64,000 nt of DNA. Source: Candidatus Thiobius zoothamnicola (GTDB taxonomy: Bacteria; Pseudomonadota; Gammaproteobacteria; Chromatiales; Chromatiaceae). The notes under the pieces were generated by a model, which saw only the letters and a program-made list of their open reading frames with translations, searched no databases and was not told the origin of the DNA. The translations under genes and the position numbers were made by a program. Shown piece by piece: positions 29,815 through 60,816 of the stretch. Where the stretch lies: the NCBI GenBank assembly GCA_030826945.1, contig JAPQLC010000005.1, positions 1 through 64,000 of the forward strand. Direction: 5' to 3'. Positions within the stretch are counted from its first letter, which is position 1, and each line of letters begins with the position of its first letter.

Positions 29815-29815
29815 G

Positions 29816-35295: not shown

Positions 35296-38200
35296 ATGAC
35301 TTTGGCACGCGAGAATACAGACGGTAAGTCCTTTTATCCTCTATCCGAAGGGCAAAAGGGATTGTGGTTTATCCATAAGAATGCGGCGGAAAAGGCGGCT
35401 TATAGTCAGCATACGGTCGTCAAGATTAATGCCGCTTTGGATTTGGTGCTTTGGAAATCCGTCTGGAGTCAAATCATTCATCGCCACGCCATTTTACGCA
35501 CCACTTATAGCATTGATCCAAAAGGCGATCCTGTGCAAATGGTTCACCCGGTGACGGATGCACCGATTGAAGTCATTAATGCCTATGGCTGGAGTGAGGA
35601 GCGGCTGACACAGGAAATTCTACAGCGGGTCGAAGCGCCTTATGATCTGGAGCAAGATTCAGTCATTCGCCTGTGTTTATTTGAGCGTGGCGGCGCAGAA
35701 TTCGTCCAGTTACTCGCCATACACCCCATCGCTACCGACGAGACGACGCAAAACCTGCTATTAAAAGAATTCAAGCAATTATATGCAGGTGTGTCTGTTG
35801 GAGAACCTGTCGCTTACACTGACTTCGTCAGATGGGAAATGGCGGAACTGGAGTCACCTCAAGGCAAAGAACTGCGCCGCTATTGGCGGGAACAATTAGG
35901 CGGTGAATTACCTATTCTGGATTTACCCACAGATAAACCCAGATCGGGTGCTATGGTGTTTCGGGGCGATGCTTATTACTTGGACCTGGGCGAATCCTTG
36001 CTATCCCGCCTGAACAGGCTGGCGGATGAGGGGGTTGGTTTGCGCCATACGATGCTGGCGGCGTTTTATACGCTGTTGCATCGTTATTCCGGTCAGGAGG
36101 ATATTATCGTTGCGGTTCCCTCTGAGAACCGTCAGAGACAAACAGCTTTTGCGAATATGGGGGGCTATTGTGCAAACCCATTGCCGCTGCGAGTCGATCT
36201 ATCAGGCGATCCTTCGTTCAAAACATTGCTGGAGCGAGTGGTGCGAACCACGTTGGGTGGCGAGCAACATGGAGGTGCCAATTTCTTGTTGGCGGAATTG
36301 GCCCAGAATCTGGAGTCAGGAGAAAACCTCAACAAAGCGTCGTTTGCTTCCGTCTTGTTTCGCTGGCGCACACGCAATCAAGCTGAAGAGGAAGCTCAGG
36401 ACGGGTTTTTACCGCTTGAACCTTATTTGATGGGGGAATATTGGGGAGCACCTTGCGATATTTCGCTTGACACCCTGGCGGCGGATAATAGGTTTTTAGT
36501 TCGTTGGAGCTATAACGCAGCATTGTTTCAGCCAGCGACCATTGAACGGATGGCGGGGCATTATCGCCAGTTACTGGAGGCGATTATTGATGACCCGGAA
36601 ATGTCGGTATCCCAATTGCGGTTGTTAACGGCAGAGGAGCGCCAGCAATTACTGTTTGAATGGAATAATACGATGGTCGCTTATCCCAAGGAGAAATGCA
36701 TCCATCAATTATTTACCGAGCAGGTGGAGAGAACACCGGATGCGACCGCAGTGGTTTTCAAGGGAAAAGCGCTGACCTACCAGGCGTTGAACAGCCAGGC
36801 CAATCAATTGGCGCGCTATCTGCAAAAGTCAGGTGCAAAACCTGACTCGCTGGTAGGCATCTGTATTGAACGTTCCCCGGAAATGATCATCAGCTTGTTG
36901 GGGGTTCTTAAGGCTGGTGCCGCTTATGTGCCGCTGGATCCGAATTATCCGCGCGAACGGATTGAGTACATCCTGTCCGAAGCGCAAGCTGAACTGCTGG
37001 TGACTTCCAGTCAGTTGCTGGCCGCTCTCAATCAAACCCGGATTCAGGCGGTTTGTCTGGATACGGATTGGGATGACATCGCCTGCGAGAGCCAGGAAAA
37101 CCCTGCAAGTGATGCCAGACCGGATAATTTGGCCTATGTCATTTTTACTTCCGGATCCACTGGCAAACCGAAGGGCGTGCAGATTCGCCATCAATCCCTG
37201 GTGAATTTTATCCATTCCATGCAGGCACAGCCGGGGTTGACGCCGGCGGACCGGTTGGTCGCAGTCACCACCATCAGTTTTGATATTCATACTTTGGAGA
37301 TCTACCTGCCATTGACGGTGGGTGCGACCATGATTCTCGCCAGCCAGCAATTGGTCGCGGATGGTTTGGGTTTGGCGGAATTGATCGCCAGACATCAGGC
37401 AACCGTCATGCAGGCCACGCCAGCAACCTGGCGTATGCTGTTAACAGCGAATTGGCAGGGAAATTCGGACTTGAAAGCTATTTGCGGTGGGGAGGCTTTA
37501 CCGCGCGACCTGGCTGACAGCCTGCTGGAAAGAACCGGTTCCTTATGGAATCTCTATGGGCCGACAGAGACGACAGTTTGGTCAACAATCTGCGAAATCA
37601 AACCGGATCGCATTGCCCGTACGCCAGATGCACCTGAATCCATTGGCCGACCAATCGCCAACACACAAATTTATATTCTGGATAAACGCTTGCAACCTAC
37701 GCCTGTCGGCGTGGCAGGCGAACTTTATATCAGTGGGGATGGCGTGGCGCGCGGCTATTTGAACCGCCCTCAATTAAATCGGGAAAACTTTCTGGGTAAT
37801 CCGTTTCTCAGCAATGCCAATATGTACAAAACAGGCGATTTGGCGCGCTATTTACCTGATGGGAATATTGAATATCTGGGGCGTATTGATAACCAAGTCA
37901 AGATTCGAGGCTTCAGGATTGAGCTGGGTGAAATTGAGAATGTGCTGGAGAAACATCCGGATGTGAGTCAGGGCGTCGTCATGGCACGGACAGACGATGC
38001 TGACGATAAACGACTGGTGGCGTATATCGCACCGGATTTGCAGGCTCACGGCCCGCAAAAGTCGGCAACAGACGAAGCAGACAATATTCTGGAGGAATGG
38101 CAACTGGCATGGGATAGTGCCTATGGTCAGACGGTTGACGAACCGGATTCGACGCTGAATATTTCGGGTTGGAAAAGCAGCTATACCGGTGAACTGATTC

Positions 38201-41200
38201 CCACTGAAGAGATGCGTGAATGGGTGGAGCATACGGTCGCGCGTATTCAGTCTGTTCAGCCTGATCGTGTATTGGAATTAGGTTGCGGCACAGGCATGCT
38301 GTTGTTTCGCATTGCGCCGACATGTTCCGCTTATTGCGGCGTTGATGTATCCAAACAAGGTTTGAATTATATTCAGCAACAACTCGATTCCCTGCCGGGC
38401 GATTGGTCCCAGGTTAATCTTAGGCATCAATTGGCGGATGATTTCAGCGGCATTGAGGCAGGTTCGTTCGATACCGTGGTCATCAACTCGGTGATCCAGT
38501 ATTTCCCCAGTGTCGATTATTTGGTCAAGGTGCTGGAAGGCGCGGTTAAGTCCGTTTCTGCCGGCGGCGTTGTGTTTATCGGGGATGTACGCAGTTTACC
38601 TTTATTGGAGGCTTTCCATGGCAGCATCCAGCTGTATCAGGCTGACGATGAGCTGACTGTTGGGCAACTGCGTCAGCAGATCACCAAACAGATGCAATTG
38701 GAGGAAGAGCTGGCCATTGATCCCGCCTTTTTCACCGCCTTGCAGGCGCATTTACCGCAAATCACCCAGGTCAGGATGCAAATAAAACGCGGGGCCGCCC
38801 ATAATGAAATGAGCAAATTTCGTTACGATGTGATGCTTCAAGTCGGCGGCGAAAGCAAGGATGCCGAACCTGAGACATGGGATTGGCGGGATGCTGAATT
38901 AACCCTGGCGGACGCATCAACCCATTTGCGGGAATTCCAGCCGGCATACTGGGTGGTGAAACAGGTTCCGAACGCTCGTTTGGTGGAGGATATTCGTCTG
39001 CTGGAAGTGTTGCGTGATAATGCCGCCGGGCTGGAGAACGTTAAGCAACTGCGTGAACAACTGCAGCAGACAACCTCTGAAGGGATTGAACCGGAGCAAT
39101 GGTGGGCACTGGATGCGTCCTATGATATCCGCATTGATAACTCGGTGGATAATCCTGGCTGTTACGATGTTTTTTTCCGGCGCAAGCAGCAGACTGGCCA
39201 GCCAGAAACTGCGATATCGTCCGCGCAAACAACGGCCATCGACCCGCTTAAGCCATGGAGCCATTACGCCAATAATCCTTCATTTGGACAATTGGCCAGC
39301 AGCCTGGCGCCGAAGATTCGGGAATATCTGAATAGCAAATTGCCTGATTATATGACGCCTTCCGCCTTTGTCATTTTGCCCGATTTGCCATTGACGCCAA
39401 ACGGCAAAGTGGATCGCCGCGCCTTGCCGGCTCCAGATCAAAGAGCTGTGGCGAATCAGGCTGAATTTGTCGCCCCCCGTAATGAGGTCGAAAAACAGTT
39501 AATCCGGATTTGGGAAGAGATCCTGCAGGTTTCCCCTATCGGTATTTATGATGATTTCATCCAGTTAGGTGGACATTCCTTATTGGGTATTAAAATCATG
39601 GTGCTGATTCAGGCGCGTCTCCATGTCGAGTTGCCTATCCATCGTTTGTTTGAGTGTCCTACTGTCGCTGAACTGGCGTCGTTGGCGCGCGCGGCGGAAG
39701 GTGTCGCTATTGGCGACAACATACAACCGGTCGCTGGCGATGAACCTAGGCCTTTATCGGTTGGTCAGGAGCAAATGTGGTTCTTGAACCAGCTTGCGCC
39801 CGACGAGCCGACCTATAACGAAGATGTCACGATTATCTTCAATGAAGCGCTTGATATTCCCGCGTTGGAACGCAGCTTCACGGAGTTGATTCGTCGGCAC
39901 GAGATTTTACGCACGACATTTCCCGCCATTAACGGGTTGCCTCATCAGGACATTCATGCGCCCTATGAATTCAAGTTGTCGGTGATTGATTTACGGGAAT
40001 CCGCGCAACCAGAGCGGGAAATCATGGCCCGACAAGTCGCCGCCGAACAGCTTTGCGCCCCCTTTAATCTGGCTGAAAAACCATTAATGCGGGCGACGAT
40101 CATCCAGTTGGGTGATGCGGAATATCGGCTGAATGTCACCTTGCATCACATCTTGTTTGATGGTGAATCAGGCAATAGCGTGTTGTTCCCGGAATTGAAA
40201 ACCATTTATATGGCTTTTGCGCAAGGCTTGCCGTCCCCATTGCCGGAATTGTCTTTGCAATACGCGGATTTCGCCGCTTGGCAGCGGGAGTGGTTGCAAG
40301 GCGAATATGTTTCCAGTCAGTTAGCGTATTGGGAGAAACACCTGGCGGGTGCGCATCAGCTGAAGCTGGCCACCGATTACCCCCGTACGCCGCAAACCAC
40401 CTCGGCAGGGTCATGGGTCAAAATTGAGATTCCTCAGGGTTTGACGGCGAAACTCAAAACGTTAAGCCGTCAGGAGGGTGTCACGCTCTACATGACGCTG
40501 GTGACGACGTTACAGATATTGTTATTCCGCCATTCAGGTCAGGAAGATGTTGTCCTGGGAACCCTCTCTTCGCAGCATAACCGTGAAGAGTTGCAAAACA
40601 TGATCGGTTATTTCCTGAACACATTGGCGTTGCGCAGCGATTTGAGCGGAAACCCAAGCTTCCGTGAGTTATTGCAGCGGGTGCGCAAAATCATCCTGGA
40701 AGCGTACGCCAACCAGGATGTGCCATTCCAAAATGTGGTCAATGTTTTTTCCACAGAACGCCAAGCTGGCGAAAACCCGCTTTTCCAGGTTGGTTTTGCT
40801 TTCCAACCACCGGTGACTGAAGACCCGGATGGCTGGAATATCCAGCAATTCATGTTGGACAATGGCAGCTCCAAATTCGATATTTCTTTCCTGGTGGAGG
40901 AACGTCTGGAGGAGGGCGGGGCGAATAGTCGGATTGTTGGAAAAGTTGAATATAAAACGGATTTATTCGTCGCTGCCAGCATTGAAAGGATGTTGGGACA
41001 TTGGTTGAATTTATTGGCGGGGATCGTTTCCAATCCAGATCAAAATATTGCGCAATTGCCGATGCTGACAAAGGCTGAACGCCACCAATTGCTGATTGAA
41101 TGGAATGACACGGCTGTTGATTACCCTGACCCAGACAAATGTTTGCACCAACTGTTTGAGGCGCAGGTTGAAAGAATTCCAGATGAAACGGCGATTGTGT

Positions 41201-44200
41201 GCGGCGATAAAACCCTGACTTATCGGGAATTGAATCAAAGCGCCAATCAATTAGCCCATTATTTGCGCAAAATTGGTGTGCGACCGGAAACCTTGGTCGG
41301 CGTATCAGTGGATCGCTCACTGGAGATGGTCATTGCTTTGTATGCGGTTGTTAAAGCCGGAGGGGCTTATATTCCGATTGATCCAACCTATCCCAAAGAC
41401 CGCATCGCTTATATGCTTGAAGATTCCAATGCGCCTGTTCTGCTGACGCAAAGCGATAGAAAAGAGAATATCGTTGATTATTCAGGACATGTTTTATGCT
41501 TGGATGCCGATTGGGGGGAGATTGCCGAAGAAAGTCATGAAAACCTGTCCAATTGGGTGACGCCTGAAAACCTGATTTACGTGATTTACACGTCTGGCTC
41601 CACAGGCAAACCCAAAGGTTCCATGGTTTATCATCGCAGTGTACGGAATGTGGTGAACTGGTTCACTCGTTACATCAATATCACGCCTCATGATCGCGTA
41701 TTGATTGTTTCTTCATTCAGTTTCGATATCACCAACAAAAATTTTTATGCGCCCTTGCTGGCGGGAGGGCAGATACATCTGTTGCCCGCCGTGCGCTATG
41801 ACCCTCAACTCGCCAGCGAGTTGATTGAACAGCATAAAATCACATGGGTGAATTGCACGCCAGGCGTGTTTTATCCAATGACTGAACCCAAAAATGAACG
41901 CACTTACCAGAAGCTGGCTTCATTACGGTATGCGATTCTGGGCGGCGAACCCATTTCACTATCACAACTTTGGGGGTGGTTGGAATCCAGTCAGTGTCAC
42001 GCCAGAATTATTAATAACTATGGCCCGACCGAGTGCACGGATTTATCGACAACCTACCTGCTGGAAGACCCAGCGGCGTATCTGGACAAACCCATGCCGT
42101 TGGGCAGGTCGGTTTCCAATGTGCAGCATTTCATTCTGGATCAGTACTTACAGCCCGTGCCTGTCGGCGTTGCGGGCGTGTTGTACATTTCTGGAGCCGG
42201 GGTTGGCGCTGGCTATCTGAACCGGCCTGAGTTGACCGCCGAGCGTTTTATTCCAAACCCGTTTTCGCCAGGTTCACGCATGTATAACACTGGCGATTTG
42301 GCACGTTACTTACCTGATGGCGAGATTGAATATTTGGGGCGTATGGATAATCAGGTCAAAATTCGTGGCTTCCGTATTGAGTTGGGGGAGATTGAAGCGG
42401 CGCTGGAGACCCACCCTGATGTCAGTCAGACGGTTGTCGTGGCGCGCGAGGATACCCCTGGTGATAAACGTTTAGTCGCTTATGTTATCCCTGATCTGGA
42501 AGCGGATGGAGCCACGCCGGCGTTGACGGATGCCAGCGCGCATGAAGAACTGGTTGAAAACAAGGTTCACAAGTCGTTAGAGCAGTGGGAATATGTTTTC
42601 AATAATGCTTACAACCAAAGCAATCAAGCAGAAGAAACCCTGGATTTAACCGGTTGGAACAGCAGTTATACCGGCGAATCCATTCCCGCCGATGAAATGC
42701 GTGAATGGGTGAACACCACGCTGGCAAGAATCAAAAGTGAGCAGGCCCGGCGACCCCAACGCGTGCTGGAAATTGGTTTCGGAACAGGCATGTTATTGTT
42801 CCAGCTGGCGCCGGAATCGGCTTATTACTGTGGTACGGAGTTATCCAGACAGGTGCTGGATGACTTGCAAGCCCAGTTAAACCAAGACCCGGAAAAATGG
42901 CGGCATGTTCATCTGCGGCATCAGCAGGCGCACGACTTCTCGGGGATTATCGGGCAGTCATTCGACAGCGTCGTCATTAATTCAGTCAGTCAGTATTTTC
43001 CGAATATTGATTATTTACTCGGCGTGCTGGAGCAAGCGGTAAAAACCGTAGCTGATGGCGGCCTGATTTTCGTTGGTGATGTGCGCAGCCTGCCATTGCT
43101 TGAGGCGTTCCATGCCAGTATTCAGTTCTGTCAAGCTGCTGATGATCTGTCACTGGCGGACTTGAAACAACGGGCGGTTAAAAAAGCTCAATTGGATAAA
43201 GAGTTGGTTATCGATCCTGATTTCTTCAGGGCGTTGCCAGCGCATTTGCCGCAAATCAGCCATGTCACCATTCAGATCAGGCGTGGGGAAGCTCATAATG
43301 AAATGACCAAGTTTCGCTACGATGCAATACTGCATGTTGGTGGCGAAGCTGTCACTGATCAACCGCTCGAACTGGATTGGCGAGAAGATTCATTGAGTGT
43401 CGCGGATGTCTGTGAGCGTTTGCAACAGGACCAACCCTCAAGTCTCCAAATCAAACAGGTTCCCAATGCCCGTTTAATTGAAGACATACGCTTGCTTAAA
43501 CAACTCAAGCATAATTCCGCCGGATTGAAGACAGTGGGCGAATTGCGCAAAGCATTGAGCCATTCAGCACCGGAGGGTGTTGAACCCGAAATGTGGTGGA
43601 GACTTGATGCGCCTTATGTTATTGAGCTGGCGGGTTCGGCTGAGGTATTGGACACCTATGATGTTACCTTCCGGCATAAAAATGCCTCTGGTGTGGCGGC
43701 ACCTAACCAACAAGCCGTCAGGCCCAAACCGCAGCCATGGCGTTCATATGCCAATAACCCGCTATTCGCTCAGGCCGCCGCTGATTTGCCTGACAAGCTG
43801 CAACATTTTCTTAACACCAAGCTGCCGGATTATATGGTGCCTTCCGCTTTTGTCGTCATGGATGCCTTTCCGTTGGCTCCGACCGGCAAAGTGAACCGGA
43901 GCATTCTGCCCGCGCCTGAAAGCGGACGCGCCCGCCTGAAAACTGAATATGTCCAACCGCAAAACGAGACCGAAGCAGTTGCGGCTGATATATGGCGGCA
44001 AGTGTTGCAAATGGAAGGCGTCGGCATTCACGACAATTTCTTTGATCTCGGCGGACATTCTTTGTTGATTGTCCAGGTCAGTGTGAAACTGTCCGAAGCT
44101 TTGGGACAACGGGTTTCCGTGCTGGAATTGTTCCAGTATCCAACCATCCACAGTTTTGCGGAATATTTCGCGCAACGCGCCGATCAAAGCCCGGATATGC

Positions 44201-44307
44201 TGCAAGCCAAATTTAAAGAAAGTGAAAAGCTAGCTTCAAGAAGGCGTAAGACACAGGATATGCGAACGCAACAAAGGCAACGTCGCCGTCATAAAAAAAG
44301 CCGTTAA
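35296..44307 (+). CDS. bimodular NRPS: C*-A(Gly)-MT-T-C-A-MT-T
   Basis: This 3003-residue synthetase has two modules, each with an N-methyltransferase embedded in the A domain. Module 1 starts with a C domain whose HHxxxDG motif reads HPIATDE (His143, Pro144, Asp148), so the catalytic second His is lost. A1 (core YVIFTSGSTGKPKG) gives the code D-I-L-Q-I-G-L-V-W-K, a glycine signature; MT1 has LELGCGTGMLLF (about 996); carrier Ser1428. Module 2 has an intact C domain (HHILFDG, about 1616), A2 with code D-I-K-N-I-G-N-D-L-K (substrate not recognised), MT2 with LEIGFGTG (about 2494), carrier Ser2922. A basic tail (RQRRRHKKSR) may dock to the PKS encoded 31 bases downstream. Expected unit: N-methylglycine then an N-methyl amino acid. 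Confidence 0.93.
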   Translation: MTLARENTDGKSFYPLSEGQKGLWFIHKNAAEKAAYSQHTVVKINAALDLVLWKSVWSQIIHRHAILRTTYSIDPKGDPVQMVHPVTDAPIEVINAYGWSEERLTQEILQRVEAPYDLEQDSVIRLCLFERGGAEFVQLLAIHPIATDETTQNLLLKEFKQLYAGVSVGEPVAYTDFVRWEMAELESPQGKELRRYWREQLGGELPILDLPTDKPRSGAMVFRGDAYYLDLGESLLSRLNRLADEGVGLRHTMLAAFYTLLHRYSGQEDIIVAVPSENRQRQTAFANMGGYCANPLPLRVDLSGDPSFKTLLERVVRTTLGGEQHGGANFLLAELAQNLESGENLNKASFASVLFRWRTRNQAEEEAQDGFLPLEPYLMGEYWGAPCDISLDTLAADNRFLVRWSYNAALFQPATIERMAGHYRQLLEAIIDDPEMSVSQLRLLTAEERQQLLFEWNNTMVAYPKEKCIHQLFTEQVERTPDATAVVFKGKALTYQALNSQANQLARYLQKSGAKPDSLVGICIERSPEMIISLLGVLKAGAAYVPLDPNYPRERIEYILSEAQAELLVTSSQLLAALNQTRIQAVCLDTDWDDIACESQENPASDARPDNLAYVIFTSGSTGKPKGVQIRHQSLVNFIHSMQAQPGLTPADRLVAVTTISFDIHTLEIYLPLTVGATMILASQQLVADGLGLAELIARHQATVMQATPATWRMLLTANWQGNSDLKAICGGEALPRDLADSLLERTGSLWNLYGPTETTVWSTICEIKPDRIARTPDAPESIGRPIANTQIYILDKRLQPTPVGVAGELYISGDGVARGYLNRPQLNRENFLGNPFLSNANMYKTGDLARYLPDGNIEYLGRIDNQVKIRGFRIELGEIENVLEKHPDVSQGVVMARTDDADDKRLVAYIAPDLQAHGPQKSATDEADNILEEWQLAWDSAYGQTVDEPDSTLNISGWKSSYTGELIPTEEMREWVEHTVARIQSVQPDRVLELGCGTGMLLFRIAPTCSAYCGVDVSKQGLNYIQQQLDSLPGDWSQVNLRHQLADDFSGIEAGSFDTVVINSVIQYFPSVDYLVKVLEGAVKSVSAGGVVFIGDVRSLPLLEAFHGSIQLYQADDELTVGQLRQQITKQMQLEEELAIDPAFFTALQAHLPQITQVRMQIKRGAAHNEMSKFRYDVMLQVGGESKDAEPETWDWRDAELTLADASTHLREFQPAYWVVKQVPNARLVEDIRLLEVLRDNAAGLENVKQLREQLQQTTSEGIEPEQWWALDASYDIRIDNSVDNPGCYDVFFRRKQQTGQPETAISSAQTTAIDPLKPWSHYANNPSFGQLASSLAPKIREYLNSKLPDYMTPSAFVILPDLPLTPNGKVDRRALPAPDQRAVANQAEFVAPRNEVEKQLIRIWEEILQVSPIGIYDDFIQLGGHSLLGIKIMVLIQARLHVELPIHRLFECPTVAELASLARAAEGVAIGDNIQPVAGDEPRPLSVGQEQMWFLNQLAPDEPTYNEDVTIIFNEALDIPALERSFTELIRRHEILRTTFPAINGLPHQDIHAPYEFKLSVIDLRESAQPEREIMARQVAAEQLCAPFNLAEKPLMRATIIQLGDAEYRLNVTLHHILFDGESGNSVLFPELKTIYMAFAQGLPSPLPELSLQYADFAAWQREWLQGEYVSSQLAYWEKHLAGAHQLKLATDYPRTPQTTSAGSWVKIEIPQGLTAKLKTLSRQEGVTLYMTLVTTLQILLFRHSGQEDVVLGTLSSQHNREELQNMIGYFLNTLALRSDLSGNPSFRELLQRVRKIILEAYANQDVPFQNVVNVFSTERQAGENPLFQVGFAFQPPVTEDPDGWNIQQFMLDNGSSKFDISFLVEERLEEGGANSRIVGKVEYKTDLFVAASIERMLGHWLNLLAGIVSNPDQNIAQLPMLTKAERHQLLIEWNDTAVDYPDPDKCLHQLFEAQVERIPDETAIVCGDKTLTYRELNQSANQLAHYLRKIGVRPETLVGVSVDRSLEMVIALYAVVKAGGAYIPIDPTYPKDRIAYMLEDSNAPVLLTQSDRKENIVDYSGHVLCLDADWGEIAEESHENLSNWVTPENLIYVIYTSGSTGKPKGSMVYHRSVRNVVNWFTRYINITPHDRVLIVSSFSFDITNKNFYAPLLAGGQIHLLPAVRYDPQLASELIEQHKITWVNCTPGVFYPMTEPKNERTYQKLASLRYAILGGEPISLSQLWGWLESSQCHARIINNYGPTECTDLSTTYLLEDPAAYLDKPMPLGRSVSNVQHFILDQYLQPVPVGVAGVLYISGAGVGAGYLNRPELTAERFIPNPFSPGSRMYNTGDLARYLPDGEIEYLGRMDNQVKIRGFRIELGEIEAALETHPDVSQTVVVAREDTPGDKRLVAYVIPDLEADGATPALTDASAHEELVENKVHKSLEQWEYVFNNAYNQSNQAEETLDLTGWNSSYTGESIPADEMREWVNTTLARIKSEQARRPQRVLEIGFGTGMLLFQLAPESAYYCGTELSRQVLDDLQAQLNQDPEKWRHVHLRHQQAHDFSGIIGQSFDSVVINSVSQYFPNIDYLLGVLEQAVKTVADGGLIFVGDVRSLPLLEAFHASIQFCQAADDLSLADLKQRAVKKAQLDKELVIDPDFFRALPAHLPQISHVTIQIRRGEAHNEMTKFRYDAILHVGGEAVTDQPLELDWREDSLSVADVCERLQQDQPSSLQIKQVPNARLIEDIRLLKQLKHNSAGLKTVGELRKALSHSAPEGVEPEMWWRLDAPYVIELAGSAEVLDTYDVTFRHKNASGVAAPNQQAVRPKPQPWRSYANNPLFAQAAADLPDKLQHFLNTKLPDYMVPSAFVVMDAFPLAPTGKVNRSILPAPESGRARLKTEYVQPQNETEAVAADIWRQVLQMEGVGIHDNFFDLGGHSLLIVQVSVKLSEALGQRVSVLELFQYPTIHSFAEYFAQRADQSPDMLQAKFKESEKLASRRRKTQDMRTQQRQRRRHKKSR

Positions 44308-44338: not shown

Positions 44339-47300
44339 ATGAGCAAATTTAATGATTCAGATGAGATTGATCAGTCGGCTATTGCGGTTATTGGCATGTC
44401 AGGGCGTTTTCCCGGAGCTGGTAATATTGATGAATTTTGGCAGAAGTTATGTGACGGCGAAGAGTTAATCACCTTTTTTTCTGACGAGGAATTGCTGGAG
44501 GCAGGCGTAGAGCCGAGCTTGCTTAATAACCCGGACTACGTCAAAGCATCACCTACTCTGGCTGGTCTTGACAGATTTGATGCTTATTTTTTTGACTACA
44601 GCGCCAAAGAGGCGTTGTATATGGATCCGCAGCAGCGGGTTTTTCTGGAATGCGCCTGGGAGGCGTTGGAAAATTCGGGATACCAGGCGAGTAATAATGA
44701 TGACACGATTGGCGTATACGGTGGTTCAACGCTAAGCATCTATTTGCTGAACAATATTATTCACGATAATCAGGTTTATGCCGGACATTTGACGAATTCC
44801 AGGGATGCGATTGTTTTTGGTGGAAATGTCCCCGAAGCGCTGACCACCAGAGTCGCCTATAAATTAAATCTGACGGGTCCGGCAGTACATTTCTCAACGG
44901 CTTGTTCCACCAGTCTGGTGGCTGTTCATCATGCTTGCCAAAGCTTGTTAAGTGGTGAATGTGAAATGGCTTTGGCTGGCGGAGTCTCTTACCTGGGTTC
45001 GCAGAATCAGGGATATTTATACGAAGAAGGTCTGGTATTGTCGCCAGACGGACATTGTCGCAGCTTCGATGCCAAGGCGAAGGGCACGCTTTGGGGGAAT
45101 GGCGTCGGCATCGTCGTGCTTAAACTCTTGGAAGATGCTTTGGCCGATGGCGATCATATTCACGCGGTGATTAAAGGATCCGCCATTAATAATGATGGCA
45201 ATCTGAAAGTCAGCCACAGCGCGCCAAGCGTGGATGCCCAGGCACGCGCTATTTATCAGGCGCAGGAAATGGCGGACATTGACCCGGAAAGCATCGGTTA
45301 TATCGAAGCCCACGGCACGGCCACACCTTTAGGTGATCCAATTGAGATCGCCGCATTAACCCAGGCATTTCGCGCCAAAACGGATAAAAAAACTTATTGC
45401 GCCATTGGCTCCGTCAAAAGCAATATCGGCCATTTAAGTGAGGCAGCAGGCATCGTCAGCCTGATCAAGACCGTCCTGACGCTTAAAAACAAACAAATTC
45501 CACCCAGTTTGCATTTTGATACGCCTAATCCTGAGATTGATTTTGAGAGCAGTCCATTCTATGTCAATACGGAGTTGCAGGATTGGATAAGCGCTGATTA
45601 TCCACGGCGAGCGGGAGTGAGTTCTTTCGGCCTGGGGGGCACCAACGCGCATATCGTGCTGGAAGAATGGGATGAGCCGGTAGAACAGTCAGCGGCAAAG
45701 CGCCAGCAACAATTATTGTTGCTGTCTGCTAAAACGCCAACTGCTTTGGAAACGATGACCGTTAATCTGGCGGATCATTTTAAACGCTATCCCGATCTGA
45801 ATCTGGAGAACGCCGCTTATACCCTGGCTCGTGGACGTAAACCCTTTCGTCATCGTCGCATCGCGGTTGTATCCAACCAGGCGGAAACTGCGGCTAAAAT
45901 ACTGTTTCCTCGTGACAATCAACGTGTTTTCACCAATTCCGGCGAATTCAAACCGCATTCAGTCGCCTTTATGTTGACCGGGCAAGGCTCACAATACATC
46001 AATATGGCGCGTGAGCTTTACGAAACTGAAGCCGTTTTCCGGATGGAGATGGACAAATGCTGCGACTTATTGAAATCTCACCTCGACTTGGATTTACGCG
46101 CCACGCTTTATCCTGCCTCAGAGCATGCTGAAACGGCGGCGACATTGACGCAAACCTCAATAACGCAGCCGGCTTTGTTTGTGACGGAATATGCGCTTGC
46201 GCAATTATGGATGTCCTGGGGAGTGAAGCCAGATGCCTTGATCGGGCACAGTATTGGTGAATATGTGGCGGCGACCTTGGCTGGCGTCTTTGATTTGGAA
46301 GATGCATTACGGCTGGTCAGCGCGCGTGGAAGACTCATGCAGTCCATGCCGATTGGCAGCATGTTGGCGGTACCTTTGTCGGAAGATCAAGTTAAGCCTT
46401 TACTGGCGCGAACGCGTCTGGAGATTGCAACTATTAACAGCCCCAACCATTGTGTTATCTCTGGGGAAACAGGCGAGATTGAAACATTCGTCCAGACATT
46501 GGCTGCAAAAGGCGTTGAAGGGCGGCATCTACAGACTTCACATGCTTTCCATTCGCACATGATGGAGCCTGTTTTGGAGGAATTTACCGATCAGGTCAGA
46601 CAGGTTGCGCTTAACGTGCCTGTTATCCCTTTTATTTCCAATCTTACGGGTACCTGGATAACGGATGAGGAAGCGACTGATCCTACCTACTATGCACAAC
46701 AATTGCGTTCCTGCGTCCGTTTCGCCGACGGTCTCCAACGACTTTTCGCTGACTCTAACCGGATTTTGCTGGAAGTCGGGCCGGGACATACTTTGAGCAA
46801 TTTCGCCAAACGCCATCCTGATAAACCTAAAGCACAATTGTCGCTGACATCTCTCCCTTCCTCTGGGGAATCTGTTTCTGACACTACCTTTTTATTGAAA
46901 ACATTAGGGCGGTTATGGTTATACGGTGTTGATATTGATTGGAAAGCTTATTACGGCGAAGATCAACATTCACGCGTTCCATTGCCGACTTATCCTTTTG
47001 AGCGTCATCGTTATTGGATGGAGGCAAAAGCCCCGGCCAGCCTGGAGCCGGCTTACGCTGGTAAAAAAGCTGATATCGCGGATTGGTTTTATGAGGCTTC
47101 CTGGAAGCGCGTCAATTTACTGATCAGCCAACAAAAGCCGTTAGCGACGCCGATACTGGTTTTTAGCGATCAACAAGGATATGGCGAGCAACTGATTGCG
47201 CAGCTGGCTACGCAAGTTAATCAAGAAGATATCATTACGGTTAACGTCGGAGAATATTTTGAGCAATCAAGCCCCAGGCTTTTTTGCATCAACCCGGCGC

Positions 47301-50300
47301 ATGACCAGGATTACCAGGATCTGATTCAAACGCTGCAAGAAAGCGCGTTAACACCTGCGACAATCATCCATTTATGGAACCTGGCTGATACGGATGTCGC
47401 AACACTGGATGTTGACTCAATCGACGCCACCCAAAATAGCGGTTTTTACAGTTTACTCTATCTGACGCAGGCGCTTGGGCGGGGCAATATTGACAGCCGG
47501 GTTGATCTGCTGGTGGTTTCCAGCCAGTTGCAGAATGTGACAGGTGAGGAAAACGTTTTCCCTTTGAAAGCAATGATAATGGGGCCAGTCCGGGTGATTC
47601 CCCAGGAATATGACAATATTCATTGCCGCAGCGTGGATATCACCATTGATCCTCCCCAAAATAGCGTGCGTGTTGTCGCGCAACTTATCGATGAATTACG
47701 GCATGAAGCGGATGACGACATTATCGCCTATCGAGGCAATACCCGTTGGGTGGAGAGTTTTGAGCCGCGACGCCTGAACAAACCTGCTGATGGTGTTACT
47801 GGCCCGCCCTTTAAACCGCAGGGGGTTTATCTGATTACTGGCGGCATGGGCGGCATGGGGTTGGCGCTTGCCGAGCACCTGGCGAAAACCGTCCAGGCCA
47901 GACTGACATTGGTTGCCCGTTCCACTTTGCCGATACGCGAAGTTTGGGAAGATTGGTTAGCGGGCCATACTGAGGAAGATCCAACCAGCATCAAGATAAA
48001 TAAAATCAAACGCATGGAAGAAATGGGAGCTAAGGTGTTGATTTGCTGCGCAGATGTGGCGAATCAGGCGCAAATGGCCGAAGTCGTCGCGCAAACCCAA
48101 CGACAATTCGGGCGAATCAATGGCGTGGTCCATGCGGCTGGCGTCGCAGGTGGGGGGGTCATACCGTTAAAAACGCGTGATATCGCTCACAAAGTGCTGG
48201 CGCCTAAAGTTGATGGAACCCTTATTTTGGATGCGCTCTTCAAGGATATCTCTCTGGATTTCATGGTGGTTTGTTCTTCCATGGAGGCTGCGTTGGGAAC
48301 TGCCGGGCAAGTTGATTACTGCGCGGCGAATAATTTTCTGGATGCGTATGCGCAGTCAAAAGCTGGCGACCCTGAGCGTTTGACGTTAAGTATTGACTGG
48401 GATGCCTGGCGGGAAGTCGGCATGGCGGTTGAAACCGCCAAATATGGATTGGACAATAAAATCCTGGAAATCAAAAAGCTTGATCACCATCTGTTTGACA
48501 AGTGCATCGTTGAGAAAAACCGGGAAGTTTATTTAACCAGGTTGATTCCCGATAAACACTGGATCATCGGCGAACATATTGTCTTGAATACGCCGAGTCT
48601 GGTGGGTACCGCCTATCTGGAGATAGCGCGTTCCGCTTATGAATGCCATAGTGGTGAATCGACTATGGAATTGCAGGATGTTTACTTCTTAAAATTCCTG
48701 TTTGTTGAAGCGGATGAGGAAAAAGAAGTCCGCACCATTCTGACTCCCACCGATAACGGCGCTGAGTTCTCCATTCAAAGTCTGGATGCTGAATCCGGTG
48801 AATGGCATGTGCATGCGCAAGGCAAGATTGCGCCGAGAGATTTTTCCGCACCCGTGACCTACGATGTTAAAGCGCTGGAAGCGGATTGTGATCAAAATAT
48901 TGAAGTGCCGGACTTGCAAGCCTTGCCGGATTACACGCGCTATGGCCCACGTTGGTTGAGTAATATTCAATGGCGCAAGGCGAATGAGAAGCATAATTTG
49001 GCGTTAATGGAGTTGCCGCAGGCGTTTGCTCAAGATGTGAAATCCTATAAATTTCACCCTTCCTTGGTCGATACCGCCACTTATGTCGTTGCGGATGTAC
49101 TGCCCAATGAATTGACCAGCCAGTTCGATTTTTTTACTGAATCCAGCGCCTATCTGCCTTATTTCTATGAAAGGGTCACGATTAAAGGCGCGCTGCCCAC
49201 CCGGTTCTATTCTTATACGACCCGGGAACTGAAGGGCCATGATTGGAGTATTAATTTATCTTTCCTGGACTCAGATGGCATTGAGCTGGTCTCCATCAAG
49301 AATTACTTGCTTAAGTATATTGATTCGGCCTACACGCTCAAAGATGATCAAAAATCCAAGGAAAGCCAGCAACGCCAGGCGCGACCAGCAGATGTCTCGC
49401 TGGCTAACGCTATTCTGCCGCATGAGGGTATTGAGAGCCTGGAACGCCTTCTACTGAATCGATTGCCTCAACTGGTTGTTTCAACCACGGATTTTCATTA
49501 TCAAAGACAATTGCTCAAGCAAAAATCGCCAGAAGCAGTGGACGAGGAAATTCTGTTTGAACGTCCACAACTGACACAGGCTTATGAAGCGCCGCAAAGT
49601 GCTACTGAAAAAGCCATTGCTAAAATCTGGGAGCAGGTGTTAAGCATCAAGGATATTGGCGTTCATGACAATTTCTTTGATTTAGGTGGTGATTCACTGA
49701 TTATCGTGCAAATTCTGCAGAAATTGAGACAAACGCTCAAATCGGATCTGAGCATTAATGATCTGTTGAATGCGAATACGATTGCCGAATTGGCGCAGGT
49801 TATCGAGCCATCAACGGAAGATGCGCAGAATTTGCCTGCCTGTCTGGTCAGATTCCGCGCGGGCGACAGTCATGTTACGCCTATTTTCCTGGTGCACCCG
49901 ATTGCAGGCAATACGCATAACTATGTCAATCTGCCTAATGCGCTTGCCCCCGAACAGCCTATTTATGCCTTACAGCACCCTAAATGGACCGACGAAAAAC
50001 AAAGTTTTAACCGTATTGAAGCAATAGCGGCTTATTATCTGCAAGCTGTTCGTCAGGTGCAGCCTAAAGGTCCCTACAATATTGCCGGTTATAGCGGCGG
50101 CGTTTACATCACCTATGAAATGGCCCAACAATTGACCACGCAAGGTGAAGAAGTCAGCTTTCTAGGTTTGATTGATAAGCCGCATTGGGAAACTGATGCA
50201 GATAAACCGAATTGGGATAGCCCTGAGTTCGGCACGCCGCTGGAAACCATGGTGTATTTCGCGGACTTACGCACCCCCAAAACGAATGGTGAAAGCCATT

Positions 50301-51850
50301 TGGTTGAATATCAGCAGCTTGGTGGTTTTGATGAGCAACTCAGTTACTTCATTAAAAACTCGCCATGGATCCATGACATGTTGCCTGCGGATGCAACCCT
50401 GAATGACTGGAAACAGCTTTGGGAGATCTTCGTGGAGCTGCGCGTGATGAACGTCAATTATTCACCCCAGATTTATCATGGAAGCGCCGTCTATTACGCA
50501 GCGGCGGAGCGTGACATCTATTACCCCAGGTTGGATGAAAAGCCCTGGTTCAAATTTATCCCCAAACTGATAGTTGAGGAAGTGCCTGGTGACCACGTCA
50601 GCATGTGGCATCAACCGAATGTGCAAATTCTGGCGCAGAAAATGACACCCTATTTTCATCAGGCCAGGCAAATCCAGAGCAGTGCTGTGACTCATGCCGC
50701 CGACCCGGTTGAACTCAGCAGGGATTTCTTATTGGAAACGGCGCAGCAGAAGGCTGGATTGGATGATTTTGGCGATCAACGTTTTCTGGTTGGCCTGGAG
50801 CAGTTGCTGACTTCCATTCATGAAGAAGCGCAATTACATGCAATGGGCAGGAGCCTCGTTCAGCAGTTAATGATTCGTCTGTTGGTCAACCGTTTACAGA
50901 TGCAGGATGAATTCAAGCGGTGCCCTGACATTTTGCAGACGCCAATTAAACAGCCGCTATTTGTGATGGGTTTGCCGAGAACCGGATCTACTTATCTGCA
51001 TAACCTGTTGTCTCAGGATCCGGCTAGCCGCTGGTTGCATTTATGGGAAGCTTATACGCCATCACCATCGCCTGATCCTGGAACGCTGGCGAGCGATCCA
51101 CGTATCGCAAAAGCTGAAAAAAGCTTTAAAGCTTATGAGGTGTTTAATCCTGAAGCAACAGCGATGCACAAATATGATGTCAACGCGCCTGAAGAGTGTT
51201 TATGGCTGTTGCAACATGATTTCGCCTGCATCAGTTTCAGCTTTTTGATGTCGATCCCTTCTTATACGGAGTGGCTTAAAACACAGGATATGACGCCGGT
51301 TTATGCTTACTATCGCCAGCAACTACAATTACTCAGTTGGAAGTGGTCAGGAGATCATTGGCTGCTGAAAAATCCGTTCCATATCGCCGATTTATCGGCA
51401 TTAATGACGGTCTTTCCTGATGCTCAAATGATCCAAACACACCGGGACCCACTGAAAGTGACGGCATCGTACAGTAGGTTGATAGAGAAACTGCGGACGG
51501 CCTATTCAGACAAGATTGACAAACATTTGATAGGCGAGGAGGTTCTCAATATGCTCACCTGGCAAATGGAGCAGGGCATGCAGGCGCGTTCGTCAATCCC
51601 CGCCCGGCGAATTGCCGATATCTCGTTCGATCATCTTGTTAAAAACCCGATTGGCACAGTCCAGCAGATTTATGATTATTTTGGTTATGAGCTGACACAG
51701 GAGGTCATTGGCGATTTGGGCAAATATATCGCTGATAACCCGCGTTATAAACATGGTGAATATGTTTACTCTCTGGAGGAATTTGGTCTTGATGCCAAAG
51801 ATCTTACGATAAGGTTTGGCGCGTACTTAAAAAATAATGGAGCGCTATGA
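44339..51850 (+). CDS. one-module PKS: KS-AT-KR-DH-ACP-TE-sulfotransferase
   Basis: This is a 2503-residue type I PKS. KS has TACSTS (Cys189), EAHGTAT and NIGHLSEAAG; AT has GHSIGEY (Ser638) and HAFHS, indicating malonyl-CoA. KR has ITGGMGGMG (about 1166) with S, Y and N catalytic residues (CSSMEAALG, DYCAANNF) and no LDD, suggesting A-type. A DH-like domain follows (H1413 in GEHIVLNTPSLVG; HPSLVD), in which the usual G and P of HxxxGxxxxP are N and V. ACP Ser1786 (GGDSLIIV). TE with GYSGG (Ser1919) and GDHVSM. C-terminal sulfotransferase with GLPRTGSTYLHNLL (about 2211) and THRDPLKVTASY. KR before DH and TE before ST are unusual orders. It probably extends the dipeptide by one ketide and releases it. 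Confidence 0.93.
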   Translation: MSKFNDSDEIDQSAIAVIGMSGRFPGAGNIDEFWQKLCDGEELITFFSDEELLEAGVEPSLLNNPDYVKASPTLAGLDRFDAYFFDYSAKEALYMDPQQRVFLECAWEALENSGYQASNNDDTIGVYGGSTLSIYLLNNIIHDNQVYAGHLTNSRDAIVFGGNVPEALTTRVAYKLNLTGPAVHFSTACSTSLVAVHHACQSLLSGECEMALAGGVSYLGSQNQGYLYEEGLVLSPDGHCRSFDAKAKGTLWGNGVGIVVLKLLEDALADGDHIHAVIKGSAINNDGNLKVSHSAPSVDAQARAIYQAQEMADIDPESIGYIEAHGTATPLGDPIEIAALTQAFRAKTDKKTYCAIGSVKSNIGHLSEAAGIVSLIKTVLTLKNKQIPPSLHFDTPNPEIDFESSPFYVNTELQDWISADYPRRAGVSSFGLGGTNAHIVLEEWDEPVEQSAAKRQQQLLLLSAKTPTALETMTVNLADHFKRYPDLNLENAAYTLARGRKPFRHRRIAVVSNQAETAAKILFPRDNQRVFTNSGEFKPHSVAFMLTGQGSQYINMARELYETEAVFRMEMDKCCDLLKSHLDLDLRATLYPASEHAETAATLTQTSITQPALFVTEYALAQLWMSWGVKPDALIGHSIGEYVAATLAGVFDLEDALRLVSARGRLMQSMPIGSMLAVPLSEDQVKPLLARTRLEIATINSPNHCVISGETGEIETFVQTLAAKGVEGRHLQTSHAFHSHMMEPVLEEFTDQVRQVALNVPVIPFISNLTGTWITDEEATDPTYYAQQLRSCVRFADGLQRLFADSNRILLEVGPGHTLSNFAKRHPDKPKAQLSLTSLPSSGESVSDTTFLLKTLGRLWLYGVDIDWKAYYGEDQHSRVPLPTYPFERHRYWMEAKAPASLEPAYAGKKADIADWFYEASWKRVNLLISQQKPLATPILVFSDQQGYGEQLIAQLATQVNQEDIITVNVGEYFEQSSPRLFCINPAHDQDYQDLIQTLQESALTPATIIHLWNLADTDVATLDVDSIDATQNSGFYSLLYLTQALGRGNIDSRVDLLVVSSQLQNVTGEENVFPLKAMIMGPVRVIPQEYDNIHCRSVDITIDPPQNSVRVVAQLIDELRHEADDDIIAYRGNTRWVESFEPRRLNKPADGVTGPPFKPQGVYLITGGMGGMGLALAEHLAKTVQARLTLVARSTLPIREVWEDWLAGHTEEDPTSIKINKIKRMEEMGAKVLICCADVANQAQMAEVVAQTQRQFGRINGVVHAAGVAGGGVIPLKTRDIAHKVLAPKVDGTLILDALFKDISLDFMVVCSSMEAALGTAGQVDYCAANNFLDAYAQSKAGDPERLTLSIDWDAWREVGMAVETAKYGLDNKILEIKKLDHHLFDKCIVEKNREVYLTRLIPDKHWIIGEHIVLNTPSLVGTAYLEIARSAYECHSGESTMELQDVYFLKFLFVEADEEKEVRTILTPTDNGAEFSIQSLDAESGEWHVHAQGKIAPRDFSAPVTYDVKALEADCDQNIEVPDLQALPDYTRYGPRWLSNIQWRKANEKHNLALMELPQAFAQDVKSYKFHPSLVDTATYVVADVLPNELTSQFDFFTESSAYLPYFYERVTIKGALPTRFYSYTTRELKGHDWSINLSFLDSDGIELVSIKNYLLKYIDSAYTLKDDQKSKESQQRQARPADVSLANAILPHEGIESLERLLLNRLPQLVVSTTDFHYQRQLLKQKSPEAVDEEILFERPQLTQAYEAPQSATEKAIAKIWEQVLSIKDIGVHDNFFDLGGDSLIIVQILQKLRQTLKSDLSINDLLNANTIAELAQVIEPSTEDAQNLPACLVRFRAGDSHVTPIFLVHPIAGNTHNYVNLPNALAPEQPIYALQHPKWTDEKQSFNRIEAIAAYYLQAVRQVQPKGPYNIAGYSGGVYITYEMAQQLTTQGEEVSFLGLIDKPHWETDADKPNWDSPEFGTPLETMVYFADLRTPKTNGESHLVEYQQLGGFDEQLSYFIKNSPWIHDMLPADATLNDWKQLWEIFVELRVMNVNYSPQIYHGSAVYYAAAERDIYYPRLDEKPWFKFIPKLIVEEVPGDHVSMWHQPNVQILAQKMTPYFHQARQIQSSAVTHAADPVELSRDFLLETAQQKAGLDDFGDQRFLVGLEQLLTSIHEEAQLHAMGRSLVQQLMIRLLVNRLQMQDEFKRCPDILQTPIKQPLFVMGLPRTGSTYLHNLLSQDPASRWLHLWEAYTPSPSPDPGTLASDPRIAKAEKSFKAYEVFNPEATAMHKYDVNAPEECLWLLQHDFACISFSFLMSIPSYTEWLKTQDMTPVYAYYRQQLQLLSWKWSGDHWLLKNPFHIADLSALMTVFPDAQMIQTHRDPLKVTASYSRLIEKLRTAYSDKIDKHLIGEEVLNMLTWQMEQGMQARSSIPARRIADISFDHLVKNPIGTVQQIYDYFGYELTQEVIGDLGKYIADNPRYKHGEYVYSLEEFGLDAKDLTIRFGAYLKNNGAL

Positions 51851-52992
51851 TGGAGAGTTTCACCGCTTTTAATCCTACGAAGCTTCATTTTGGCCGCGAT
51901 GTAGTGAAGCAGATTGGCGACCATGCGACGCAAATTGGAGCGCATGCCTTGCTGATGTATGGATGCGGCTCAGTCCTTAAAAACCGCAGCTATGCGGATA
52001 CTGTTGGCCGACTTAAACAAAACGATATCAAAGTGACCGAATATAGCGGTATCAAACCGAATCCTTCGGTTGATGATGTGATGGAGGCAGCTCAGATCGG
52101 CAGGGATAATAAAGTGGATATGGTTGTTGCCGTAGGCGGCGGCAGCGTTATAGATGCCGCTAAAGTTGTCGCCATCTGCATTGCGGATGATGACTGCAAT
52201 GCCTGGGAGGTGATGACCAGAGAGCATGATCCGCAAGCAGCCGTGCCTATTCTGGCGGTATTAACCCTGGCGGCTACTGGAACGGAAATGAATCCGGCGG
52301 CTGTGCTTCAGAATCGCCAGACCAAACAGAAAATAGGTTTCAGGCATAAACTGATGTATCCGATGCATTCTTATCTGGATCCCGCCTACACCCTTTCAGT
52401 TCCACAGAACTATACGGCCTATGGCATTGTGGATCTGGTGTCTCATTGCCTGGAAGCTTGGTTTGGGAAAGGAAATGCTTCATTGTCTGACCGGTTTGTC
52501 ATATCCATAATCAAGGAAGCCATGGAATATGGCCCGGCTTTAATGGAGGATCCAGAGAACTTTGAACTACGTTCTAAAATTATGTGGGCCGCCACCAATG
52601 CCTTGAACAGTCTGACAATATATGGCAGAAGCTGTTGTGACTGGGGAGTCCATATTCTTGGCCATAATCTTTCGGTTCTCTACGATATGCCGCATGGTGC
52701 CACGCTTTCCATTATCTATCCTGCATGGATGAAAGTGATGCGCGACAGAGCTGGTGAAAGAATTGCGAAATTAGGTCAGGGGCTATTTGGAAACCCTTCT
52801 ATTGATGAAACCATAGCTTCTCTCGAAACATTTTTCTCTGGTTTGGGCAGCCCGGTTAAATGCATGGAAGCTGGAATTGAGCCTGCATGCAAAAAAGAAA
52901 TCCTTCAGCTTGTCAACAAAAATCAAGCGGAAGGACTCAATTATCAACTTTCCAATGTAGAACGCGAAGCCATATTAACGCACATTTTTTAA
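51847..52992 (+). CDS. iron-type (group III) alcohol dehydrogenase
   Basis: This 381-residue Fe-ADH of the butanol-dehydrogenase/YqhD-like branch begins FNPTKLHFGRDVV, with NAD(P)-binding VVAVGGGSVIDAAKVV, LAATGTEMNP, and metal ligands Asp and His in GIVDLVSHCLE, His in HILGHNLS and His in DMPHGATLS. It reduces aldehydes or oxidises alcohols. Its ATG overlaps the PKS stop by 4 bases (ATGATG; the second ATG could be used), so it is translationally coupled. Possible roles are reducing an aldehyde on the product or recycling a semialdehyde linked to diaminobutyrate metabolism. Confidence 0.88.
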   Translation: MMESFTAFNPTKLHFGRDVVKQIGDHATQIGAHALLMYGCGSVLKNRSYADTVGRLKQNDIKVTEYSGIKPNPSVDDVMEAAQIGRDNKVDMVVAVGGGSVIDAAKVVAICIADDDCNAWEVMTREHDPQAAVPILAVLTLAATGTEMNPAAVLQNRQTKQKIGFRHKLMYPMHSYLDPAYTLSVPQNYTAYGIVDLVSHCLEAWFGKGNASLSDRFVISIIKEAMEYGPALMEDPENFELRSKIMWAATNALNSLTIYGRSCCDWGVHILGHNLSVLYDMPHGATLSIIYPAWMKVMRDRAGERIAKLGQGLFGNPSIDETIASLETFFSGLGSPVKCMEAGIEPACKKEILQLVNKNQAEGLNYQLSNVEREAILTHIF

Positions 52993-53007: not shown

Positions 53008-53883
53008 ATGAAACAAGAAGCTGTTTCTGAAAACCGTTCCATTCGTCCCGTGACTCAGGATGAGGTTAATTTTTACCATGAAAATGGTTATGTGATTGTT
53101 CGCGGCATGTTCGATGTTGAAGAAATGAGACTGGTGCAAGCGGTTTGCCAATCTGACCCCAACCTTGATGCTTCTCTGAAAAAAGTTGTTGATGCAAACG
53201 GCAATATTTGGGGAGCATCTGTCTGGACAGGACTGAATGACAGCCTGGTTAGCGCAGTGACCCGCACTGCGCGAATGGTTGAAGCTGTGGAATCATTGGT
53301 AGGTGAGCGGAATTGTTATCATATGTATTCCAAGATTGTTCAAAAATACCCTCATGACGAGAGTATTGTTCACTGGCATCAGGCATTCCCTTCCTGGTAT
53401 GACGATGGTGTTCCTTTCCCGGATAAAGCGACTGATTGTTCAATCGCTGTTACTGAAAACACCAAGGAAAATGGTTGTCTTCAGGTGATTGAAAAATCTC
53501 ATCTGCTAGGACGCATTGACCGGGTTGAGGTTGGTAACACGGTTCAATGTGATCCGCAACATATTGAAAGAGCCTTACATGATCTAAAGATTATCGATTG
53601 TGAAATGGATGCTGGAGATATTGTATTTTTCCACCCCAATATGGTGCATGGTTCTATAGAAAATACAACCGATAAAACCCGTATTCTGATGCATGGTCAT
53701 TATAACGCTATGTCGAACCGTCCTTTTGCAGAAGGCTTGGAGGCGCATACTTGCCTGCCATTAGAGAAATTACCGGATTCCGCTATTAAGGATGGCATTT
53801 ATACAATGGGATTTGATCCTAACGCCAAGGACTGGAATTGGTATAACAGAGACCCTGAGGAATATTTGGAAGCAACGGCTTAA
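53008..53883 (+). CDS. putative Fe(II)/2-oxoglutarate halogenase (PhyH fold, HxA motif)
   Basis: This 291-residue protein of the phytanoyl-CoA dioxygenase superfamily begins QDEVNFYHENGYVIVRGMFD. The first iron-ligand motif, normally HxD in WHQD, reads His124-Gln125-Ala126 (HWHQAFPSW). The distal His214 (MVHGS) and the 2-oxoglutarate-binding Arg225 are kept, as is ENGCLQVIEKSH. Loss of the carboxylate ligand with Ala (or Gly) in its place is the established hallmark of SyrB2/CytC3/Cur-Hal-type halogenases, where chloride takes that coordination site. Predicted role: radical chlorination of an unactivated carbon on a carrier-bound or free building block. A strong GAGGAG ribosome site precedes the ATG. 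Length is near SyrB2 (310). An alternative is a catalytically altered hydroxylase. Confidence 0.8.
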   Translation: MKQEAVSENRSIRPVTQDEVNFYHENGYVIVRGMFDVEEMRLVQAVCQSDPNLDASLKKVVDANGNIWGASVWTGLNDSLVSAVTRTARMVEAVESLVGERNCYHMYSKIVQKYPHDESIVHWHQAFPSWYDDGVPFPDKATDCSIAVTENTKENGCLQVIEKSHLLGRIDRVEVGNTVQCDPQHIERALHDLKIIDCEMDAGDIVFFHPNMVHGSIENTTDKTRILMHGHYNAMSNRPFAEGLEAHTCLPLEKLPDSAIKDGIYTMGFDPNAKDWNWYNRDPEEYLEATA

Positions 53884-54031: not shown

Positions 54032-54829
54032 ATGGTTGATGTCAATCAACAAAATATCGCATTTCCTGCTGTTGGTTTTATCAGTGCTCCAGCTTGGCAT
54101 GATCCTGCACCTTATGAATTTACAACCGCTGTTGAGGAAAGAGTTCTTACCCAACAAGCTTTTCCATTACTCCCCGAGTTTGATTATTCTCTGGAAAGCA
54201 TCGCCTCTGAAATTGTTGCAGAAAGGTTTTGTTTGTGTGCGAAAACGCTAAAGGCATCAGGGTGTCATTTAGTTGTCCAGGTTGGCAGTCCTTTTGCCTG
54301 GGCGAAAGCAGAATCAGAATTACAGGCGCGTCAACGTAATAAGCGAATAAGGCTTGCAGCCAACATTCCCAGCATCATGAATGCTCTCGCCATTGTCGAT
54401 GCCTTGCGCGCCCATCAGGTTAGCAATATTGCAGTATGCAGCTATTACAACCCAAGCTGGAAAAAGGGCTTTGTTGACTTCCTAAAGTCGTGCGGTTTCC
54501 AAGTATCGTATGCCGCGAGTTTCTCTGAACAAGGATTAATGAAGGAAGGAGATGTAGAAAAACTGTTTAAAGATGCCTGGAATAGTCCATCAGGCATGAT
54601 CAAGACGTCAGTCGCCCTAACTAGAAAATCTGCTCCGGAAGCTGAAGCCATTGTGATTACAGGAACAGGAGTCAGGACGTTAGAGATATTATGTGAATTG
54701 GAAATAATCGCCCAGTGCCCTGTTATCCCGGCGGATACTGTTTTATATTGGCTTGGTGCGCGTTATTTAAATTTGACGTTGTCGCCTCAAATGGGTTGTT
54801 TTCAGAATCTGCCTTTACATCCAGAATAA
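54032..54829 (+). CDS. Asp/Glu racemase-maleate isomerase-AMDase superfamily protein lacking both cysteines
   Basis: This 265-residue protein fits the maleate isomerase/arylmalonate decarboxylase plan: IPSIMNALAIVDALRAHQV, IAVCSYYNPSWKKGFVDFLK, VSYAASF and AIVITGTGVRTLEILCELE. The catalytic Cys positions of the family appear to be Gly/Ser (VVQVGSPFAW) and Gly/Thr (ITGTGVRT), so classical two-thiol racemisation is unlikely. Role unknown; it might be a decarboxylase- or isomerase-like enzyme with altered chemistry. The ribosome site is weak and the start is uncertain. It follows the halogenase-like gene by 148 bases and precedes the PhzF gene. Confidence 0.6.
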   Translation: MVDVNQQNIAFPAVGFISAPAWHDPAPYEFTTAVEERVLTQQAFPLLPEFDYSLESIASEIVAERFCLCAKTLKASGCHLVVQVGSPFAWAKAESELQARQRNKRIRLAANIPSIMNALAIVDALRAHQVSNIAVCSYYNPSWKKGFVDFLKSCGFQVSYAASFSEQGLMKEGDVEKLFKDAWNSPSGMIKTSVALTRKSAPEAEAIVITGTGVRTLEILCELEIIAQCPVIPADTVLYWLGARYLNLTLSPQMGCFQNLPLHPE

Positions 54830-57730: not shown

Positions 57731-57782
57731 GGTGTTTTTCCATTGATGGACAGATTCAGGATCTTTTCCTTGCCAGTTTGGT

Positions 57783-59102: not shown

Positions 59103-59147
59103 TGGGTTGTCTGGATGATGTGAATCGGCGGGTGGATCAATGGATCA

Positions 59148-59184
59148 AGGCGACGCACTGCGGGAATTCCACAGTGCGTCGCCT
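59148..59184 (-). terminator. strong hairpin after hfq
   Basis: A perfect 13-bp inverted repeat (aggcgacgcactg at 59148-59160, cagtgcgtcgcct at 59172-59184) with an 11-base loop lies 23 bases past the hfq stop. The T run downstream is weak. It may terminate most hfq transcripts while allowing readthrough, or the DUF1111 gene may have its own promoter in 59103-59147. Confidence 0.6.
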
Positions 59185-59207
59185 GCTGATGCAGGGATAT
59201 CGGTTGA

Positions 59208-60784: not shown

Positions 60785-60816
60785 GTAAAGCTCATGATCA
60801 AACGGTTATGACAACG

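Follow-up and report, generated by a model that had tools for sequence, protein, structure and literature searches.

The question raised by this locus is whether a protein of the phytanoyl-CoA-dioxygenase (PhyH) fold that lacks one of the customary iron ligands of Fe/2OG oxygenases attaches chlorine to a natural product. The window, meaning the whole 64,000-nucleotide stretch analyzed, carries the gene and its iron-site codons at the following positions:

53008..53883, + strand: PhyH-fold Fe/2OG protein, putative radical halogenase (291 aa; Pfam PhyH, 4.6e-30)
53377..53385, + strand: H124-Q125-A126, the proximal iron histidine and an alanine replacing the aspartate ligand (codons CAT CAG GCA)
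53647..53649, + strand: H214, predicted distal iron-binding histidine (aligned to GriE His210)
53680..53682, + strand: R225, predicted 2OG-binding arginine

The His-Gln-Ala reading proposed in the initial annotation was obtained again by reading the codons directly. The assignment to the PhyH fold, a double-stranded beta-helix, also held: PhyH is the single Pfam match of the protein (105.9 bits), and the AF2 model (pLDDT 76.9, pTM 0.79) has as its nearest folds the leucine hydroxylase GriE, the proline hydroxylase H11 and EctD, which are also the closest solved proteins by sequence. The metal ligands of GriE are reported as His110, Asp112 and His210 (PMC5676206). In our alignment, H124, A126 and H214 fall on these three residues, after an offset of 3 between the chain index and the published numbering was reconciled by hand. 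H214 and R225, which had been described as retained, are invariant in all aligned relatives, as are the flanking active-site residues. Judged from its sequence, the protein has thus lost the acidic iron-holding residue of its oxygen-adding relatives, as have the known chlorinating enzymes.

Four further genes of the same strand bear on the function of this one, and each has an orthologue in the cyanobacterium Planktothrix:

35296..44307, + strand: NRPS, C-A-MT-PCP-C-A-MT-PCP (61% identical to the Planktothrix orthologue)
44339..51850, + strand: PKS, KS-AT-KR-DH-ACP-TE-sulfotransferase (65% identical)
51847..52992, + strand: iron-containing alcohol dehydrogenase, Fe-ADH (4-nt overlap with the PKS stop; 68% identical)
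54032..54829, + strand: arylmalonate-decarboxylase (AMDase)-like protein, conserved beside PhyH (55% identical)

The NRPS, PKS and Fe-ADH genes lie 5' of PhyH, in the same direction and tightly spaced. The PhyH gene starts 15 nt past the Fe-ADH stop, has GAGG 5' of its ATG, and is followed on its 3' side by the genes for the AMDase-like protein and a PhzF-type protein. When the window PhyH protein was used in tblastn searches of plasmids, three Planktothrix agardhii plasmids matched at ~62% identity and the next matches were at 34%. The five-gene block recurs on the P. agardhii plasmids at 55–68% protein identity. There the order is NRPS (in opposite orientation), PKS, Fe-ADH, PhyH, AMDase-like gene and then a second PhyH, so that the locus is co-linear with the window from PKS to AMDase-like gene. 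The Planktothrix PhyH copies are 62% and 58% identical to the window protein and carry WHQG (first copy) and WHQA (second copy). Pocket residues of both A domains, extracted with hand-chosen anchors, are nearly identical in the two organisms, and the peptide part of the product is therefore probably the same in both.

Two features of this block were noted in passing. The last three domains of the PKS (44339-51850) are ACP, thioesterase and sulfotransferase (Sulfotransfer_3, 142 bits), in that order, and its Planktothrix counterpart has the same ending; in CurM the sulfotransferase precedes the TE. The AMDase-like proteins (54032-54829; Planktothrix L002:20929-21921) have GTGVRTL or GTGARTL at the presumed catalytic-Cys site, with Cys residues only elsewhere; we take the catalytic Cys of AMDase to lie within SCGG, at the site matching these motifs.

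The change at position 126 is unusual among PhyH proteins. Outside the clade formed by the window protein and its HxA/HxG relatives, and outside SyrB2 and CytC3, the aligned PhyH rows have HxD (32 of 33) or HxE (1 of 33). All 30 additional gammaproteobacterial PhyH proteins likewise have HxD; with a small overlap between the two sets, ~60 proteins were sampled. Besides the clade, the only HxA proteins in this sample are SyrB2, CytC3 and one SyrB2 homologue. The other PhyH protein encoded in the same genome has WHQD, i.e., HxD. Within the clade, position 126 is always A or G, and D is never regained. The codons are GCA in the window and GGT and GCT in the Planktothrix copies; all three differ, and GCA is two bases away from any Asp codon. 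That both Planktothrix copies have G or A, via different codons, argues that the motif is not due to chance.

Searches for additional members gave few relatives. A scan of genome contigs with one alignment (A1), whose two short peptide patterns were weak, returned only 6 HxD loci and no further HxA/G member, leaving rarity unproven. Among viral contigs there was no match from A1 and one distant HxE protein from a second alignment (A2). No PhyH relative and no matching PKS were found in 55 relatives, and a profile search of 369 Gammaproteobacteria gave one HxD relative only.

A tree was built with the trait column (HxA/G versus HxD) removed from the alignment. In it, the five HxA/G proteins fall into a single clade (support 100/100), whose sister group consists of ten HxD proteins from Planctomycetota, Acidobacteriota, Chloroflexota, Bacteroidota and Gammaproteobacteria (~34% identity; support for the union 99/93). 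SyrB2 and CytC3 are placed elsewhere, so that at least two losses of the Asp are needed. Forcing the HxA/G clade to join the SyrB2 group cost 23.5 log units (AU p = 0.016, with long branches present), which makes the case for separation good but not final. Membership in the SyrB2 family (TIGR01762) was likewise rejected, both by this placement and by a match of 42.1 bits covering residues 16-172 only, below the curated cut-off of 226.3. Because the clade is sister to HxD proteins and its union with SyrB2 is rejected, the carboxylate appears to have been lost independently. On this tree, the clade is a new one of a known kind of enzyme, descended from a GriE/EctD-like hydroxylase. No larger HxA clade of known non-halogenases encloses it.

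The PhyH genes are intact and maintained, with substitution patterns of purifying selection. Between the window and Planktothrix, pS is ~0.77 (saturated) and pN is ~0.25; within Planktothrix, dN/dS is 0.36 for the first copy and 0.13 for the second. In the Planktothrix tandem (L002:19974-22867 and L003:19974-23584), the HxG copies of two strains differ by 14% and the HxA copies by 2%, which suggests recombination or unequal selection.

We consider the window protein to be an Fe(II)/2OG radical C-H halogenase in which chloride would fill the vacant iron site, with a probability of roughly 0.72. The facial triad would be reduced to two histidines, H124 and H214, which would hold Fe(II) while 2OG chelates the metal in bidentate fashion and chloride enters the site freed by the Asp-to-Ala change. 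Reaction of O2 and 2OG would then yield a chloroferryl species able to abstract hydrogen from an sp3 C-H, and the substrate radical would recombine with Cl. The enzyme would in this way tailor a building block or an intermediate of the NRPS-PKS product. This course, from the two-His iron to Cl rebound, is established for SyrB2. For the window protein, the motif, the retained ligands, the fold family, the clade and the synteny are observed, while binding of iron and 2OG, binding of chloride, halogenation and the substrate are inferred.

Halogenation of a natural product is probable because the same motif change has been kept in matching clusters of a very different bacterium, Planktothrix. The halogenase reading of the initial annotation is well backed by comparison, in that a conserved HxA/HxG clade exists and no acid obviously replaces the lost ligand; its association with SyrB2 and CytC3 does not hold, the origin being apparently independent. 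In P4H, the D414A/G substitutions gave neither hydroxylase nor halogenase activity, and the same loss of activity on replacement of the Asp was reported for TauD (PMC2767507). In FLS, activity of D230G was undetectable, and loop swaps were required for even 1.9% halogenation (PMC12346261). Since bare loss of the Asp is usually fatal to activity (P4H, FLS), long-term retention of HxA/G implies a function. Residues 119-122 and 128, which flank the motif, have changed in step with D126, a pattern that fits the reports that an Asp swap alone is insufficient.

The alternative that fares best is an Fe/2OG oxygenase lacking the carboxylate, in which water or substrate fills the site and the outcome is hydroxylation, desaturation or cyclization, not halogenation. 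The closest characterized relatives by fold and sequence are hydroxylases, and HXG/A, though an accepted halogenase marker, carries a published warning of false positives (PMC12871659). This alternative is nonetheless unlikely, given that the Asp-to-Ala/Gly change ended oxygenation in P4H, FLS and also TauD (PMC2767507) and that the clade has the A or G of known halogenases at this position and never another residue.

A rearranged triad, with D117, D133/E133 or a substrate carboxylate as the third ligand of an ordinary oxygenase, is more improbable still. Of the positions acidic in all five clade members, only D117, 7 residues before H124, lies close before the motif and is largely clade-specific, nine of the ten near HxD relatives having a non-acidic residue there. 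SyrB2 also carries D/E in the DEG segment that precedes its WHQA, and only His116 and His235 are reported as its iron ligands (PMC2767507). Position 133 is D or E throughout the clade, but by eye GriE, EctD and H11, all HxD proteins, also have an acid just before the post-motif Gly. In the automatic alignment, where this column is poorly fixed, GriE has T, EctD has E, and eight of the ten near HxD relatives have no acid. No conserved acid obviously replaces D126, and D117 and D133 are left as improbable candidate ligands.

Equally improbable is a PhyH-fold pseudoenzyme that serves the cluster structurally or as a regulator: ligand loss is often a mark of pseudoenzymes, and RESC14, a PhyH-fold member of an RNA-editing complex, is among the fold matches, yet both His, Arg225 and the flanking active-site residues are invariant, and purifying selection and the Planktothrix duplication fit an enzyme. 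Sequencing error is ruled out by the different codons in independent genomes, and a pseudogene by the intact and conserved state of the gene.

If the halogenase reading is correct, the product is the next concern. The orphan NRPS/PKS hybrid PNL1 lies on the megaplasmid of PCC 7805 (PMC5259702), and in the annotation of that whole plasmid the only NRPS and PKS pair is the window-like one. By orthology, the window cluster matches PNL1. The latter is described as one of the two orphan clusters in NIVA-CYA 98 and, from its NRPS-PKS make-up, probably corresponds to NRPS-like gene cluster 1 of PMC2739229. It has been known since 2009, and publications of 2009, 2017 and 2019 assign it no product. PNL1 is also reported from Spirulina major PCC 6313, at 66% AAI. 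The open-access papers that we consulted neither connect the PhyH genes of PNL1 with halogenation nor report a halogenated product of this cluster. A chlorinated compound, oscillaginin A, is produced by NIVA-CYA 98, yet no complete halogenase was found in 2009 (PMC2739229); its genome contains a cluster that is apparently PNL1. Microginin clusters have since been assigned an enzyme of the CylC type (PMC8406957), so that a connection of PNL1 with oscillaginin A chlorination is a lead only.

With regard to the substrate, a free one is as likely as a carrier-bound one, since the nearest characterized enzymes use free amino acids and no stand-alone A-T protein comparable to SyrB1 was found in the conserved block. 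The substrates of GriE, EctD and H11 are small free amino acids. More tentatively, the clade could be an independent halogenase lineage acting on a small acid or on an amino acid in free, not carrier-bound, form, with the HxG/HxA pair of Planktothrix providing either two halogenations or a cryptic chlorination that is converted by the Fe-ADH and AMDase-like enzymes, toward the PNL1 product.

Laboratory attempts to turn a hydroxylase into a halogenase by replacing the Asp ligand usually fail. A conversion that arose separately in nature, in which both the Ala and the Gly form have persisted and close HxD sister proteins exist, would be a natural experiment on the other changes required. Halogenation is also predicted for an orphan cluster of bloom-forming cyanobacteria, and its product can be sought by isotope pattern.

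Several other genes in the window were recorded. A second, divergent NRPS operon (16281-31830, − strand), absent from the Planktothrix block, encodes two single-module C-A-PCP-TE synthetases (domains assigned by eye), a class III aminotransferase, methyltransferases and an ABC transporter. Within 5 kb (29816-34495) are two extra sulfotransferases, one fused to a carrier domain (29816-31087, − strand) and one stand-alone (33632-34495, + strand), adjoining an Asp/Glu racemase and a Cupin_8/JmjC-like protein (32772-33569). A 1593-aa protein (3469-8250, − strand) with, by eye, TIR-type, NTPase, pentapeptide and WD40 repeats and a separate TIR-like protein nearby (9571-10113, − strand) are possible defence or signalling genes. 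By eye, the genes at 55639-62147 (− strand) encode a series of imelysin-like proteins and di-haem proteins of the MauG/cytochrome type, which together resemble a locus of iron-uptake or oxidative function.

Four comparisons place the protein among known systems. GriE (leucine 5-hydroxylase), H11 and EctD are its nearest solved relatives and have HxD, whereas the window protein has HxA and so lacks an intact HxD...H triad. The near structural neighbours of the model by Foldseek include no solved halogenase (SyrB2 is at rank 50), and there is none among the 50 fold matches listed by VIA-align, an absence with no value for exclusion. The CurA halogenase domain and BtnX (PDB 9pv1, titled biotin halogenase) are PhyH-related halogenases reached through the family profile, although as weak matches (E 0.0012 and 0.0032). 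SyrB2 and CytC3 share with the window protein the PhyH fold, the WHQA tetrapeptide, the distal His and the layout of a 2OG enzyme; they differ in belonging to a separate clade and to a family for which the window protein scores 42 bits against a cut-off of 226, and no SyrB1-like stand-alone A-T partner was seen in the conserved block. PNL1 (PMC2739229, PMC5259702) has the same NRPS, PKS, Fe-ADH, PhyH and AMDase-like genes as the window, and differs in that Planktothrix has a second PhyH (HxA), HxG in the first copy and the NRPS on the opposite strand.
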